This document shows, piece by piece, positions 868-6,545 of a stretch of DNA of 64,000 bases. Location of the stretch: the NCBI GenBank assembly GCA_902761355.1, contig CACWJY010000001.1, positions 124,001 through 188,000 on the forward strand, in the 5' to 3' direction. This DNA comes from Fibrobacter succinogenes (GTDB taxonomy: Bacteria > Fibrobacterota > Fibrobacteria > Fibrobacterales > Fibrobacteraceae). The translations under genes and the position numbers were made by a program. Each line of letters begins with the position of its first letter. Positions within the stretch are counted from its first letter, which is position 1. Under the pieces are notes generated by a model that saw nothing but the letters and a program-made list of their open reading frames with translations, ran no database searches and was not told the DNA's origin.

Positions 868-873
868 TCTAGG

Positions 874-896
874 ATTCGGAATTCTGAATTCCGAAT
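874..896. repeat. Near-perfect inverted repeat upstream of the lipoprotein gene
   Basis: Two 11-nt arms, ATTCGGAATTC (874-884) and GAATTCCGAAT (886-896), are exact reverse complements separated by a single base. It lies between tadA and the next operon, directly before its likely promoter. A similar GGAATTC-rich stretch occurs at 60408-60440. It could be an operator-like palindrome or an intergenic repeat; it lacks a T-tract, so a terminator is less likely. Confidence 0.5.
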
Positions 897-899
897 TAC

Positions 900-911: not shown

Positions 912-1742
912 ATGAATTTCTTTAAGTCTTTTTTGAGCGCAAGCGCTCTTTTTGCATTGTGTGCCTGTGACGGGAACGAATTCGTTCTTGAATTTAACAC
1001 CCAAAATGTTCCGCCGCAGACTTATTACCTCGAAACCTCTTTAAATGCTATCCTCCCGGCGACAGATTCTGTTTCGGCGACGCCTGAGGCCATGAATACA
1101 CACCTCGAAGTTCGTGCGACGAATTCGCTTTTGACGGCCTATGATGATGGCTCAGCCAAGTTCCAGCTAAAGATTGACTCGGTTGACTATAAGTCCGATA
1201 AACGTACGGTCGAAGAGTTCCGCAGCATGGAACGTTACATGTCTACAGAACATTTTCAGTTCAAAATGGCTAAAGATGGTGCCATTCGCGATGCTGTCGT
1301 CGAGGACTCCGTGATGCTTGGGACGGAGGCGTTGGACCTTATTCGCGTGTTCCTTAAGGTGCAACCGCTCTTGCCAGGGAAAGCCGTTAAGCTGGGTGAA
1401 ACTTGGGACCGCCCCGTCGAAATTCCGGGTAATTCAGGAAAAACGGTTGTGTATAAGTCCTTTACGTTGGAAGACCAGTATGTCCATGATGGAATCCAGA
1501 TGGCAAAGATTGGTATGAACTTAAAGTACAAGGAAATACCCGATTCGACATCTGACCTCCGTATGGAGAGTAAGGGCTTTATCGTGGGTACAGGCTCGAT
1601 TCTGTTTGATATGACTCATGGTGCCATTGCTAGCGTAAAAATGGAATTGACTGGCGACTTGAGTGTGAATGATATCGTTGCAAACAGCGTTATTCCTGAT
1701 ATGCATGTTATCCAGAAGATTAAACTGAGGAGTGAATTTTGA
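912..1742 (+). CDS. Exported lipoprotein of unknown function, first gene of the motor-like operon
   Basis: The protein has 276 residues. It begins with a basic N-terminus, a short hydrophobic segment and a lipobox-like LCAC at residues 16-19, so it is probably a lipoprotein of the outer membrane or periplasm. The rest is hydrophilic and beta-rich, with a KLGETWDRPVEI stretch of a kind common in DUF6263-like secreted proteins; that assignment is tentative. There are no catalytic motifs. Its end overlaps the next gene by 4 nt, and all following genes to 6450 are spaced by 2-15 nt, so it is very likely part of the same transcript as the MotA/MotB-like pair. It may be the outer-membrane component of that system. 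Confidence 0.7.
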   Translation: MNFFKSFLSASALFALCACDGNEFVLEFNTQNVPPQTYYLETSLNAILPATDSVSATPEAMNTHLEVRATNSLLTAYDDGSAKFQLKIDSVDYKSDKRTVEEFRSMERYMSTEHFQFKMAKDGAIRDAVVEDSVMLGTEALDLIRVFLKVQPLLPGKAVKLGETWDRPVEIPGNSGKTVVYKSFTLEDQYVHDGIQMAKIGMNLKYKEIPDSTSDLRMESKGFIVGTGSILFDMTHGAIASVKMELTGDLSVNDIVANSVIPDMHVIQKIKLRSEF

Positions 1743-2458
1743 TTTTGAAGGCTAGATATTTTGCAAGTGTTCTGGTTGCGCTCCTTTGCGTCTTTGCTGT
1801 AGCGGGGGAGATGCCTTTCCCGTCTATCGAAAATGGCAAGGTAAAACTGGTGGTGGCGGATAGTCCTTATTTGCTTGAGCAGGGGGCTGTTTTTTCGGCT
1901 AAGGATACCTTGGAAATTGAACCCGGGGTGACCGTACTCATGGGTGAGTATGCAAAGCTTATGTTCCGAGGATCCGTTAAGATTGTCGGTACTGATGCTG
2001 CTCCGATTGTGTTTAAGAGCGCAGATTCCTTAAAAAGCTGGAATGGCGTCCACTTTGTGTCGGCAAACCGCCCGTTTGAAATCAAGAACTTGATTATTGA
2101 AAACGCTTTCCGCAATACGGTGTTCCGCTCCAAGGGAATTTTTGAAAATGTAAAGTTCGTGAACAATTATTACGGACTTTGGATTGATGATGTTCCTGAA
2201 GTTTATTTGGCTCGTTGTGAGTTCTTACGTAACCGTTTTGCGCTTTCGGTTCGTGCTGGTCAGGTAATGTCGGCTGATACCAAGATAAGCGATAACGTTT
2301 ATGGCTTGTATCTAGAAGCGGGTGGCAAGTTCGATGGTGACAAGAGCCTTATCAAGGATAATCTAGAGGCCGATGTTCGTAACGAAGCCGAAGAATTGGC
2401 TGCTCAGGGTAAGCGCGTCAATCGCAATATTTGGCACCGCATAGAGACTGCTTTCTAA
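1739..2458 (+). CDS. Exported right-handed beta-helix-like protein
   Basis: A 239-residue protein with a signal peptide (ARYFASVLVALLCVFAVAGE) and a body of short repeats with I/V/F-rich strands and Asn turns (e.g. GIFENVKFVNNYYGLWID), typical of parallel beta-helix or carbohydrate-binding/sugar-hydrolase folds. No active site can be named. The TTG start at 1739 overlaps the upstream stop and is preceded by GAGGAG at 1727-1732 with 6-nt spacing; the next TTG at 1745 would have worse spacing. It is therefore translated in step with the lipoprotein upstream and probably acts in the periplasm in the same pathway. Confidence 0.65.
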   Translation: MILKARYFASVLVALLCVFAVAGEMPFPSIENGKVKLVVADSPYLLEQGAVFSAKDTLEIEPGVTVLMGEYAKLMFRGSVKIVGTDAAPIVFKSADSLKSWNGVHFVSANRPFEIKNLIIENAFRNTVFRSKGIFENVKFVNNYYGLWIDDVPEVYLARCEFLRNRFALSVRAGQVMSADTKISDNVYGLYLEAGGKFDGDKSLIKDNLEADVRNEAEELAAQGKRVNRNIWHRIETAF

Positions 2459-2467
2459 GGAGTTTTA

Positions 2468-3376
2468 GTGCAAGAGGTATTTCGCAGGTCCATTCGAAAA
2501 ATGACGGGCAGCAGTGTCCGTCTTTCGGTGCGCCCCAACCGATCTTCGATGATGTCGACACTTTCGCAATCGATGATGGTGACGTGGTCCATCGTGTTGC
2601 ATGAGCATTTGGATGCCATGCTGAATGACCCTGCTGTAAATGTGGGAACCTCGGAACTGATTTCTTTTAGTGAGACGGCGTGGAAATTGGCGGATTCCAG
2701 TTTTCCGCAGATTATCGCGGATGCCAATAAGCTGTATGATGAATTCCGCACCAAGTGGATGCAACGTTTTTCGACTGACGAAGTGATGCGTCTTTTGCTT
2801 GAAGGTGGCGATTTTTTGCATCACGACGAAGAAAAAGGCTGGGCCTTGACGGTCAAGAACAACAAGCAGGATATTAATGCTTTTTATTCGGCAACAATTC
2901 ACCTTTTGGTGAGCGACGCCGAACCCTTGTTCGTCCGCATGCACGGGCGCGTGATGCAACTCCAAGAAAAACTCTGCAAGTATTGGCACTCTGAAAGCGC
3001 CGTGGATGCGGTTTCCAAACTGCTCCCCAGTTTGGAAGCGTCGCTCCGAGATAAAGAAAATGCCATGGTGGTGTCGTTGCGTAGTTCGTTGAATTCTCTT
3101 GCTAAAAAGCGCTTTGCTGCGGCATTCACGACCAAGGGGACTCCTCATTATTACAACTCTGCGGCTTCTTGTGCTCGCAACATTTGTCGCTTTTGGAATC
3201 CGCATTACGCTTATGAAAACGCCTTCTTGGCGTTTACCGATGATTTTTGTGATTATGCTCGCGGGCTTACGATTCAGATTATTGAATGGTATCAAAGCAA
3301 GTGGGCCTTGTTCCTGCGAGGTTTCTCGCGTGGTCAATTGAATTTGTTCGAAACAACAGCCTCGTATAAGGCTTAA
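2468..3376 (+). CDS. Unknown soluble protein upstream of the MotA/MotB-like pair
   Basis: 302 residues, GTG start with AAGGAG just upstream. I do not recognise the family. There is no signal peptide and no membrane segment, so it should be cytoplasmic. The N-terminus is basic and Ser/Arg-rich (RRSIRKMTGSSVRLSVRPNR), and the rest appears mainly helical with scattered Trp/His residues. It ends 15 nt before the MotA-like gene. The position beside a proton-channel pair invites comparison with Zorya accessory proteins, but I see no ZorC-type signature, helicase motif or nuclease motif. Confidence 0.6.
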   Translation: MQEVFRRSIRKMTGSSVRLSVRPNRSSMMSTLSQSMMVTWSIVLHEHLDAMLNDPAVNVGTSELISFSETAWKLADSSFPQIIADANKLYDEFRTKWMQRFSTDEVMRLLLEGGDFLHHDEEKGWALTVKNNKQDINAFYSATIHLLVSDAEPLFVRMHGRVMQLQEKLCKYWHSESAVDAVSKLLPSLEASLRDKENAMVVSLRSSLNSLAKKRFAAAFTTKGTPHYYNSAASCARNICRFWNPHYAYENAFLAFTDDFCDYARGLTIQIIEWYQSKWALFLRGFSRGQLNLFETTASYKA

Positions 3377-3391
3377 GGATGCAGGTAAACT

Positions 3392-5146
3392 ATGAAGAAT
3401 GCATTTAATACGATTTTGGCACTTACGGTGGTCGGGCTGATAGCCTTGGTCATTGCGGCCTTTTATTTTGGGGCTCCGCTGTTTGGCTGGATTATTATGA
3501 TTGCCATTTTTGCCGTGTTTATCGGCGAACAGCTTGTGGCGCTCAAGACCGTTAAGCTTGTTACTGCGGAAAATGAGATTTTGGAAACTTGTAAAAACCG
3601 TGGCGGCTATGTGTCTGGCGACGGGGTGGTTGCCCAGCGTGTCTCTCTTGCTAAAAGCCTGTTGTCTAAAAAGATTCGCCTGGATTCTTCGATGGCATAC
3701 GAGGTGCTTTCGAATAGTGTAGGTATTTCAGTTCCGCGTAGCGCTGGCGGTACGGTGATTCTTTTGGGCCTTATGGGTACGTTTTTTGGCCTTATGTATT
3801 CTGTGGCGACTGCCGGTGGTGCTATCGATAATTCTACAACGCAGGGGACGCTTGATACCATCCAGCTCTTGTTCCAAAATATGAAGGGCATTTTTGGTAC
3901 AAGCCTTTGTGGTTTGTTTGCTGCTTTGATTTTAAACGTGAGCCGCAATATGATGACTGCTGCTCGTGATGCTTTTGTGGCTCGCCTCGATGCGTTTACG
4001 CTTGACTTGCAGGGCGCAGCCGCTGACGAAAGTGAAGAAGCTCAAGCCAAAACAGAACTGGAACGCCTGTTTGATTCTGTTGAAAATAATTTGTCTGTAG
4101 TTGCGTCTTCGGTCAAGGATGGTCTTTCTGGCGTTGTTTCGATGGTGGGGGATGAACTTTCTGCCATGACATCTAAATTGAATGACTCCCTTGCTGCGGT
4201 GTCGCTTAATATGAACAAGGCTGTCGAAAATCTGGGCCCGTCTGTCAAGGATTCTTTGTCGGGCGCGTTTACGCCGATGGAGCAGAATATCAAGGTCCTT
4301 TCAGCTTCTGTTGAATCGATTCCGGGTAAACTTGACGAAAAACTGAATGGAATTTCGACAACGCTGAAGGCTTCGCTTGAAGGTGTTTCGGGCAATGTAG
4401 AGACGGCGCTTGCCAAGGTGGCTTCTGATGTGAAGGCTGGCCTTGATGGTGTGGCTTCGGCTACGGAATCGGCTATGGATGCTTCTTCCAAGAACATCGC
4501 TAGTGCTGTGGCCGATCAGGTCAAACAGTCCGATGAACAGTGGAAGTCTTTTATGGAACGCCTTTCGGCAGAGACCTCTGCCAATGTGGATTCTCAGAAA
4601 GAAGGCCTCGAAACTCTCAAGAATGTGGCGCTCCAGGTGGCGGAAAAGGCTCAGGCGGGGTCTGCCGAACTCAGCAATTCTGTTGCCGAAAAACTTTCGG
4701 CTCTTTCTTCCGACATTCTGGGTGCTTTCCAGAAGCTTTTCGAAACGTCTGCCGTGCTGCTTGAAGCCCAAAAGGCTCTTACCGAAAGCATCGACAACCG
4801 TGTGGTTAAGGAAAAGGAAGCAACGGATGCTTTGGGCGGAAACATTGTAGAAACCGCAGAACTGATGCGCGTGAATCAGTCCGAACTCAGTGCGAACCTC
4901 GAAATGTTGCGTGCTGGTCTCGAAACCATCCTCGAAAAGCTCTCGGGCGACACTGCAGAACGCGAAGAAGAAGAAAGCTTTGTGGAACACCTCAACCAGT
5001 CCCTCGAAGCCTTCCACGAACGCGCAAGTGAAGTGCTTATGGAAAACGCGGTCAAGACACAAGAAATCTTGCTCGAAGTCCTGGAACAGACTCAGCGAGT
5101 TCCGTCTGCTTCGATCGAGTCGCATAAATCTGATGTCGAGGGCTAA
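3392..5146 (+). CDS. MotA/TolQ/ExbB-like channel with a long helical tail (ZorA-like)
   Basis: 584 residues. Two hydrophobic segments lie at about residues 8-48. Two more, at about 118-142 and 165-188, carry the MotA/TolQ/ExbB channel signature (LLGLMGTFFGL; GIFGTSLCGLFAALI). From about residue 215 to the end there are some 370 residues of helical, Ala/Ser/Lys/Glu-rich, apolipoprotein-like repeats such as SVKDGLSG, SVKDSLSG and DVKAGLDG. Flagellar MotA and ExbB/TolQ are about 220-300 residues and lack this tail; ZorA of Zorya defence systems has one, reaching into the cytoplasm. The MotB/OmpA-like partner starts 2 nt downstream. Inference: the stator-like half of an ion-driven envelope machine not linked to flagella. 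Confidence 0.8.
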   Translation: MKNAFNTILALTVVGLIALVIAAFYFGAPLFGWIIMIAIFAVFIGEQLVALKTVKLVTAENEILETCKNRGGYVSGDGVVAQRVSLAKSLLSKKIRLDSSMAYEVLSNSVGISVPRSAGGTVILLGLMGTFFGLMYSVATAGGAIDNSTTQGTLDTIQLLFQNMKGIFGTSLCGLFAALILNVSRNMMTAARDAFVARLDAFTLDLQGAAADESEEAQAKTELERLFDSVENNLSVVASSVKDGLSGVVSMVGDELSAMTSKLNDSLAAVSLNMNKAVENLGPSVKDSLSGAFTPMEQNIKVLSASVESIPGKLDEKLNGISTTLKASLEGVSGNVETALAKVASDVKAGLDGVASATESAMDASSKNIASAVADQVKQSDEQWKSFMERLSAETSANVDSQKEGLETLKNVALQVAEKAQAGSAELSNSVAEKLSALSSDILGAFQKLFETSAVLLEAQKALTESIDNRVVKEKEATDALGGNIVETAELMRVNQSELSANLEMLRAGLETILEKLSGDTAEREEEESFVEHLNQSLEAFHERASEVLMENAVKTQEILLEVLEQTQRVPSASIESHKSDVEG

Positions 5147-5148
5147 GC

Positions 5149-5790
5149 ATGCGCTTTAGAAAAGACGAAAACAGTAATCCTTGGATGGCATACACGGACT
5201 TGGGTGTAGCCCTGGTTTCGTTGTTTATCCTTGCGTTTGTGGCCATGGCGACTCTTAAGGAGCAAAAGGCTGAAGACCTGACGCGTACCGAAGAAGAAGT
5301 CTTGAGTTGCCAAGAAGAAATGCGCAAAATTGCCGCCGAACGCAATGCACTCTTGTCTAAGAGCCTACAGACATCTATTGAAGCTGGACTTATTGCTCTT
5401 GAAGACGGTAAGATTCAGATTCAGGCTTCGTTCCTATTTCCGATTAACGGTGCGGACCTGACTAAAGAAGGTGAAGGCGTGATTCGTGGTATTAGCAAGG
5501 GACTTTTGGAAGCTCTTGATTCTACTGATGTAATCATGGTGAGCGGCTTTACCGACGATACTCCGGTGAAATCGAAAACTTACACCAACTGGAATTTGTC
5601 GACGGAACGTGCCGTAAACGTGGTCAAAACCTTGATTGCGCAGGGCTTTCCGCCCGATAGGCTCTTTGCGGCGGGATTTGGCGAACATATGCCTAAGTAT
5701 CCCAATGATAGCGAAGAACACCGCCGCTTAAACCGTCGTGTCGAAATCGGTGTGACACCGCTTCAAAAAATGGATCATTCGGCTCACTAG
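5149..5790 (+). CDS. MotB/OmpA-like peptidoglycan-binding partner (ZorB-like)
   Basis: 213 residues. A short cytoplasmic N-terminus is followed by one membrane helix (about residues 12-36) with a conserved-looking Asp, D17, in WMAYTDLGVALVSLF, matching the ion-carrying Asp at the start of the MotB/ZorB helix. A short coiled coil follows, then an OmpA-like domain (about residues 85-200) with SGFTDDTPV, NWNLSTERAVNVV and RRLNRRVEI, which binds peptidoglycan. The order and size fit MotB and ZorB. The gene lies 2 nt after the channel gene, so the two should form one complex. TolR/ExbD can be excluded because they lack the OmpA domain. Confidence 0.85.
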   Translation: MRFRKDENSNPWMAYTDLGVALVSLFILAFVAMATLKEQKAEDLTRTEEEVLSCQEEMRKIAAERNALLSKSLQTSIEAGLIALEDGKIQIQASFLFPINGADLTKEGEGVIRGISKGLLEALDSTDVIMVSGFTDDTPVKSKTYTNWNLSTERAVNVVKTLIAQGFPPDRLFAAGFGEHMPKYPNDSEEHRRLNRRVEIGVTPLQKMDHSAH

Positions 5791-5793
5791 TTT

Positions 5794-6450
5794 ATGCAAG
5801 AGCGCCTAGAAACATTACGGACGAGTATTGATGCAATCCGCAAGAGCGGCAAGTTGCCTCATTGGCGTATGGTCTATGCCGAAAATCTGCTGAACCGTGC
5901 TGGCGAATATATGGCAGTTGATAGGCTGCCTGAAGCGGCTATGGTCGCCGATAAGTTGGATCGCTGGATTAAAACGCATACTCCGCGTACAGATTCGTCG
6001 GATCGATACGCCGAGAACCCAATGGTTTTCTGGAATGCGGACATGCTCAATGCGATGTCTGCGAAACTTAAGCAGACATTGGCTGAGAAGCGCTTGTTGG
6101 TTCCGGCCACGGAACGCGAGTCGACTATTCGCCGTTTGACTTTAGTCGAAGGGTGGGTCCGTGATGGTTTGCTTTTGCAGGCCCATGACGAATTACTGTC
6201 GCTCCGTACTGCGCTTATTGCTCGCTTAAGGCGTAGTTTGCGCGCGCGCCTTGTGGGAACGGATCTTTACCGTGGAACGGCTTCTGTTCCAGCAGGGAGT
6301 CTTGTTGGTCCTTATAACGCCTTGCATACCCTCGAAGAAACGTTCCATGTGGTGGGCGAACGCGATCCGATTTGGATTGAAGACTTCCTCGAAATCTATA
6401 ATGACCTGTTCCGCGTTGTTGAACGACTTGTTCCTCAAGATAAGAAATGA
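5794..6450 (+). CDS. Unknown protein, last gene of the motor-like operon
   Basis: 218 residues, starting 3 nt after the MotB-like gene. I do not recognise the family. No signal peptide or membrane segment is visible; the protein looks helical with many Arg and Leu residues (e.g. ALIARLRRSLRARLVG) and is probably cytoplasmic. It is followed by an intergenic repeat and a bidirectional terminator, which closes the operon. A role as a cytoplasmic partner of the long channel tail is possible but is inferred from position alone. Confidence 0.6.
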   Translation: MQERLETLRTSIDAIRKSGKLPHWRMVYAENLLNRAGEYMAVDRLPEAAMVADKLDRWIKTHTPRTDSSDRYAENPMVFWNADMLNAMSAKLKQTLAEKRLLVPATERESTIRRLTLVEGWVRDGLLLQAHDELLSLRTALIARLRRSLRARLVGTDLYRGTASVPAGSLVGPYNALHTLEETFHVVGERDPIWIEDFLEIYNDLFRVVERLVPQDKK

Positions 6451-6452
6451 CA

Positions 6453-6500
6453 CGTAGTGTCATCCTGAGCGTAGCGTAAGCGAAGTCGAAGGATCTCTAG
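6453..6500 (+). repeat. Intergenic repeat of the TCATCCTGAGCG...AAGTCGAAGGATCT type
   Basis: The stretch contains TGTCATCCTGAGCG, GCGAAGTCGAAGGATCT and partially self-complementary ends (ATCCT/AGGAT). From general knowledge, sequences of this form occur as dispersed intergenic repeats in many bacterial genomes. Only one copy is visible in this window, so its repetitive nature cannot be shown here. Confidence 0.5.
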
Positions 6501-6519: not shown

Positions 6520-6545
6520 AAAAGAGCTCCCGAAGGAGCTCTTTT
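6520..6545. terminator. Bidirectional intrinsic terminator
   Basis: AAAAGAGCTCC (6520-6530), loop CGAA, GGAGCTCTTTT (6535-6545): a perfect 11-bp stem with an A-tract before and a T-tract after. It separates the plus-strand motor-like operon from the minus-strand barrel gene and can serve both. Confidence 0.88.

Follow-up and report, generated by a model that had tools for sequence, protein, structure and literature searches.

A divergent type III Zorya-like motor operon of Fibrobacter, more probably put to routine envelope use than to dedicated phage defence

Type III Zorya is listed as a phage defence system, and a distant version of it forms a vertically inherited core locus in the bacteria considered here. 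The six genes at positions 912-6450 of the window (i.e., the whole 64,000-nucleotide stretch of Fibrobacter succinogenes DNA that was analysed) thus raise the question whether motors of this kind serve primarily for defence. Our main reading, held at a probability of roughly 0.62, is that the six genes code for a divergent motor like that of type III Zorya, for which routine envelope use is more likely than dedicated phage defence.

The operon consists of six + strand open reading frames in the order lipoprotein, beta-helix protein, F, A, B, and G, with the following features (window positions):

912..1742, + strand: lipoprotein gene (gene 1), 276 aa, lipobox LCAC with Cys19, distantly DUF6263-like
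1739..2458, + strand: gene of an exported beta-helix protein (gene 2), 239 aa, TTG start
2468..3376, + strand: F gene (gene 3), soluble all-helical protein of 302 aa, probable distant homologue of DUF3348
3392..5146, + strand: A gene (gene 4), ZorA-like channel with a long tail, 584 aa (PADLOC ZorA3, hhalign)
3392..4006, + strand: MotA/ExbB-type channel domain of A, residues 1-205
4832..5086, + strand: tail tip of A, residues 481-565, the most conserved block, kept in motorless relatives
5149..5790, + strand: B gene (gene 5), ZorB-like, 213 aa, one TM helix and an OmpA domain (PADLOC ZorB3, hhalign)
5197..5199, + strand: codon of Asp17 of B, putative equivalent of the MotB ion-binding Asp
5794..6450, + strand: G gene (gene 6), soluble protein of 218 aa, predicted distant homologue of DUF2894
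6520..6545, no strand assigned (bidirectional): terminator-like hairpin at the operon end

All six open reading frames were confirmed as the tightly spaced set described in the first-pass annotation, with a 4-nt overlap of genes 1 and 2 and later intergenic gaps of 9, 15, 2, and 3 nt. GC content is flat across the operon, and the hairpin lies downstream of it, ahead of a convergent gene. Palindromic intergenic sequences resembling dispersed repeat elements were observed on both sides of the operon (window 871-899 and 6445-6500); the upstream one reads GGAATTCTGAATTCC, and the downstream one begins TGACACGTAGTGTCATCCTGAGCG. The assignment of gene 1 as a lipoprotein held, the lipobox cysteine (Cys19) being invariant among 20 relatives. 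The N-terminus of the beta-helix protein resembles a signal sequence, and its Beta_helix match stays below threshold (E 8e-5). In A, four hydrophobic helices were found ahead of a tail of about 370 residues, in agreement with the channel-like protein described for gene 4.

Sequence comparison shows A to be a homologue of type III ZorA, and B one of type III ZorB. A matched PADLOC ZorA3 (E 4e-13) and type III ZorA in hhalign (E 5e-9), and B matched PADLOC ZorB3 (E 1.6e-43) and type III ZorB in hhalign (E 7e-41). In profile-profile comparison, the channel scored 70.1 against the type III channel (maximum of 20.2 in 100 column shuffles). Among PDB sequences, Zorya ZorA chains alone gave credible matches to the channel profile (best E 0.0014). 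B contains an OmpA domain (E 5e-16) with OmpA residues, and its Asp17, already pointed out in the first-pass annotation, aligned to the MotB aspartate position (solved MotB 6ysl); an Asp occupies this position in 39/39 relatives. The operon thus has both features of the type III motor, i.e., a ZorA made up of a channel and a long cytoplasmic tail and a ZorB with a TM helix, the Asp, and an OmpA-type domain. The earlier reading as a non-flagellar, ZorAB-like, ion-driven motor that would span the envelope is supported, and the soluble and exported partners do co-occur with it.

In type III Zorya, the zor pair is flanked by DUF3348 and DUF2894 genes, and ZorC, ZorD, and ZorE are lacking (Payne et al. 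2021, PMC8565338). The first-pass claim that the operon is unlike known Zorya since these three are absent therefore fails; PADLOC models of ZorC, ZorD, and ZorE had no match in five of the six operon proteins and the lipoprotein, or in ten downstream ORFs. The type III gene order DUF3348-zorA-zorB-DUF2894 is matched by F-A-B-G. With B of the window as query, plasmid loci annotated DUF3348-DUF802-OmpA-DUF2894 were retrieved, and HMM searches recovered this order in 52 proteobacterial loci; F was lacking in just three, each of them starting at a contig end. In a collection-wide genome scan, the best matches outside Beta- and Gammaproteobacteria were the Fibrobacter loci. The designations differ between sources: in PADLOC-DB (PDLC00652-00658), DUF2894 is ZorF3 and DUF3348 is ZorG3, but Payne et al. 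2021 and PMC11890865 have the two names the other way round in their text.

Pfam and PADLOC models of DUF3348 and DUF2894 gave no direct match to F or G, and F and G as unrelated unknowns, the outcome of these scans, were rejected after profile-profile tests. The two soluble proteins formerly called unknown are, as far as profiles can tell, distant homologues of DUF3348 (F) and DUF2894 (G), F less strongly so than G. For G, DUF2894 ranked first of 23 profiles (E 1.9e-5; 39.9 vs 18.6 for the next) and scored 41.5 against a shuffle maximum of 17.6. For F, nothing was detected against DUF3348 with a family-level profile; with a class-wide F profile, DUF3348 ranked first of 24 (30.8 vs 20.0), the low-threshold alignment was collinear end to end, and the score was 34.3 against a shuffle maximum of 26.8. 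The tail of A scored 23.5 against the type III tail (shuffle maximum 19.3; 100 column shuffles in each case). Column shuffles remove helix periodicity, and reversed-profile controls (scores of 12-22) and unrelated profiles therefore matter too; F, G, tail, and channel each exceeded 100/100 shuffles and the reversed control. Away from the locus, the DUF2894 model yielded only sub-threshold scatter in Fibrobacterota.

F and a DUF3348 protein were both predicted by AlphaFold, with confidence, to be all-helical (pLDDT 87 for F and 88 for DUF3348, the latter with an input alignment from genome loci only, plasmid-record rows being left out), and the two models were compared by order and spacing of their elements, without superposition. 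The helix order is the same in both: three short helices, 10-11 and then 2 residues apart, are followed after 14-15 residues by a longer helix, and the later helices measure 31-33, 11-26, 25, and 33-34 residues, the middle two being one residue apart; in F, an insertion precedes the 31-33-residue helix. A fold search against the PDB gave no significant match for the model of F (best E 0.08) or of DUF3348 (0.23), so the folds give no clue to activity.

Gene order was examined in 41 loci (the window and 40 Fibrobacterota loci) using HMMs built from the proteins of the window. The complete six-gene order was found in 38/41, far beyond chance, and F and G, i.e., the 302- and 218-residue neighbours singled out in the first-pass annotation, accompany A and B in these complete loci. 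Among the three exceptions, the order is incomplete at a contig end in L034, while L047, from a neighbouring family, also lies at a contig end with no lipoprotein or beta-helix gene seen. The third is L033, where the beta-helix gene has been lost (L033:8337-8555, genome G009) and the other five genes are kept. The tadA gene usually lies just upstream of the operon; it is absent from that place in L040 and L042, where all six genes are still together, and the conserved unit is therefore the six genes. The same order occurs on named Fibrobacter MAG contigs (L124-L126).

Within the genus of the window, the ZorA channel domain is present in one copy per genome in 64 of the 67 sampled genomes, the three without a match being 65-88% complete. 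The lipoprotein is present in all 79 sampled Fibrobacteraceae genomes with a ZorA channel (79/79), as a single copy inside the operon wherever ZorA occurs in this family. Protein distances correlate with those of rpoB across 18 genomes (Spearman) at 0.93 for the lipoprotein, 0.92 for F, 0.89 for B, and 0.94 for G (tadA, 0.84). The operon is bordered by tadA and, downstream, by a class II tRNA synthetase, an FtsX/ABC pair, a Clp ATPase, adenylate kinase, and polysaccharide genes; PADLOC matches among the downstream genes are generic ATPase and transporter matches. The operon is a core, vertically inherited system of Fibrobacter-like bacteria and not a mobile island, and the suggestion of a new defence system found no support in this setting, in which a chromosomal locus surrounded by housekeeping genes is inherited vertically in single copy. 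Outside class Fibrobacteria, weak lipoprotein relatives were observed in G005 (L005, C825:4696-5523) and other members of the phylum; no match to F was found in these members.

Conservation along A is uneven. Mean pairwise identity is 0.54 in residues 1-55, 0.67 in 111-200, 0.33-0.43 in 201-400, 0.61 in 401-480, and 0.76 in 481-565, i.e., the tail tip (76%) is more conserved than residues 111-200 of the channel (67%), and total length varies from 506 to 644 residues among relatives. F was found in 104/151 Fibrobacterota genomes, among them genomes of the sister genus g7, of g11, and of families f3, f4, and f5, groups in which the channel is absent. In 20 such motorless loci of other genera and families, G still follows F with one gene between them. 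In f3 and f5, the middle protein has 413-569 residues, with a coiled-coil-like body and one or two hydrophobic helices; in g7 and g11, it has 168-244 residues, a single helix, and a repeat rich in proline, such as PKIEIPKIE. In eight g7 and g11 loci (L171-L174, L176-L178, L180), the repeat was seen as (P-K-I-E-I/V/L-P)n between the TM helix and the ZorA-like tail tip. In 19 loci, a tail-tip HMM from the family of the window matched the middle protein alone (E 5e-13 to 8e-26), and in L184 it matched an ORF that overlaps the F-G gap (4e-6); the channel HMM had no match in the motorless loci at E up to 10. The lipoprotein gene adjoins F in genus g14 of f3 and is absent from g7 and g11.

Relocation of ZorB or the channel elsewhere in the motorless genomes was considered and rejected. 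The best B matches in 23 of these genomes reached at most 84 bits and nearly all covered the OmpA domain only (185-419 bits over the full length in motor holders), and the channel profile found nothing save one weak 25-bit match in G131. Some motorless genomes are incomplete (73-94%); the F-middle-G string is contiguous in each locus. Loss of the motor, once or more often, is the simpler reading of the motorless state, because proteobacterial relatives have the motor and g7 and g11 share a family with motor holders, but g7 lies on a long branch in the rpoB tree. Related bacteria thus offer a natural dissection of the system: F, G, and the final ~85 tail residues persist together where channel and ZorB are missing, and this co-retention makes the tail tip a candidate docking site for F and G.

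A working mechanism can be proposed by analogy with the solved Zorya and MotAB complexes, the ZorA5B2 structure (PMC11890865) serving as model for an ion-turned A pentamer with its tail. A and B would form a 5:2 complex in which B grips the peptidoglycan via its OmpA domain, ions passing Asp17 would turn the A pentamer, and the five A tails would bundle into a cytoplasmic rod. Judging from tip conservation and co-retention in motorless loci, F and G may bind at the tip of the tail, within its final ~85 residues. If so, the mid tail would be a spacer, and F and G would be moved by the motor, receive its signals, or regulate it. On the periplasmic or outer side, the lipoprotein and the beta-helix protein would be the parts of this machine at work.

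As to what the machine does, we hold a routine envelope function to be slightly better than an even bet and dedicated phage defence to be distinctly less probable, with a small remainder for other functions. DUF3348 occurs in 74/120 sampled Burkholderiaceae genomes, nearly always as a single copy (among the 20 listed genomes that lack it, 17 are <3.5 Mb), and, less commonly, in 32/100 Xanthomonadaceae genomes; together with the Fibrobacteraceae pattern, these counts lean towards a routine function. Bona fide defence, in which infection would disturb the peptidoglycan, ZorB would sense this, the motor would turn, and F and G would be effector or regulator, appears doubtful. It agrees with the homology to type III Zorya, with the Stenotrophomonas type III system, which in E. 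coli reduced plaque formation by at least one phage and gave protection in liquid culture (PMC8565338), and with the need for the ZorB Asp, the tail, and peptidoglycan binding in defence by types I and II (PMC11890865). Most defence systems, however, spread patchily, whereas this locus combines a single copy in 64/67 genomes of the genus with rpoB-like inheritance and housekeeping neighbours, and motorless relatives persist.

Somewhat short of an even chance is given to a machine that would maintain envelope tension or stabilise the outer membrane (a role like that of Tol-Pal), or drive surface adhesion in cellulose-attached cells, with the lipoprotein and the beta-helix protein as outer parts. 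The core distribution, the co-conservation of the lipoprotein (79/79) and also of the beta-helix protein, and a B that by analogy would bind peptidoglycan are consistent with it; no TolA/TonB-like coupler is found in the operon, however, and the lipoprotein, being also beside F in motorless f3 loci, is not motor-specific. A proteomics paper lists for the Fibrobacter S85 envelope an ExbB/MotA-domain "fimbriae-associated" protein, FSU_0286, which may or may not be A (PMC6851124). A flagellar or gliding stator is very improbable in spite of the MotAB-like fold signatures, as B scores far below the cut-offs of all NCBIfam MotB/MotD/MotS equivalogs, the only credible solved relatives of the channel are Zorya ZorA chains, and the operon is without motility genes. 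A broader proposal is offered tentatively, at odds below even: type III Zorya may at root be a conserved cell-envelope machine whose essential unit is F plus G on a membrane-tethered tail tip, the ion motor being a detachable power source that is absent from whole Fibrobacteria lineages, which would still keep an F-tail-G complex without it.

Compared with known systems, the divergent motor operon is closest to type III Zorya, which it resembles in the F-A-B-G order, ZorA3/ZorB3 homology, probable F and G homology from profile comparison, the lack of ZorC, ZorD, and ZorE, and a long ZorA tail with a related C-terminal tip. It differs in being very divergent (B shows 33-38% identity, F and G are missed by Pfam and PADLOC, and DUF802 has no match in A), in having motorless relatives on the Fibrobacterota side, and in its lipoprotein and beta-helix genes, which the proteobacterial type III loci examined do not have; the two exported genes had been named as a difference from known Zorya, and this difference is genuine with respect to those loci. 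Zorya types I and II (ZorAB with ZorC and ZorD or ZorE) share the ZorA/ZorB-type motor, the OmpA-type ZorB, the conserved Asp, and the long tail, but the partner genes are others. MotAB and PomAB likewise have a four-helix A subunit and a B subunit with TM helix, conserved Asp, and OmpA domain, whereas the operon combines a B below MotB equivalog cut-offs with a long-tailed A and fixed F and G partners. TolQR-Pal and ExbBD-TonB are, by analogy, comparable as ion-driven inner-membrane motors acting on the envelope; unlike a short ExbD/TolR-type subunit, B has its own OmpA domain, and the operon contains no TolA or TonB. Three things appear to be new here: the operon includes a lipoprotein and a beta-helix protein, conservation of the ZorA tail over its final ~85 residues exceeds that of the channel, and in motorless loci F and G flank a single membrane-anchored protein that ends in the tail tip.
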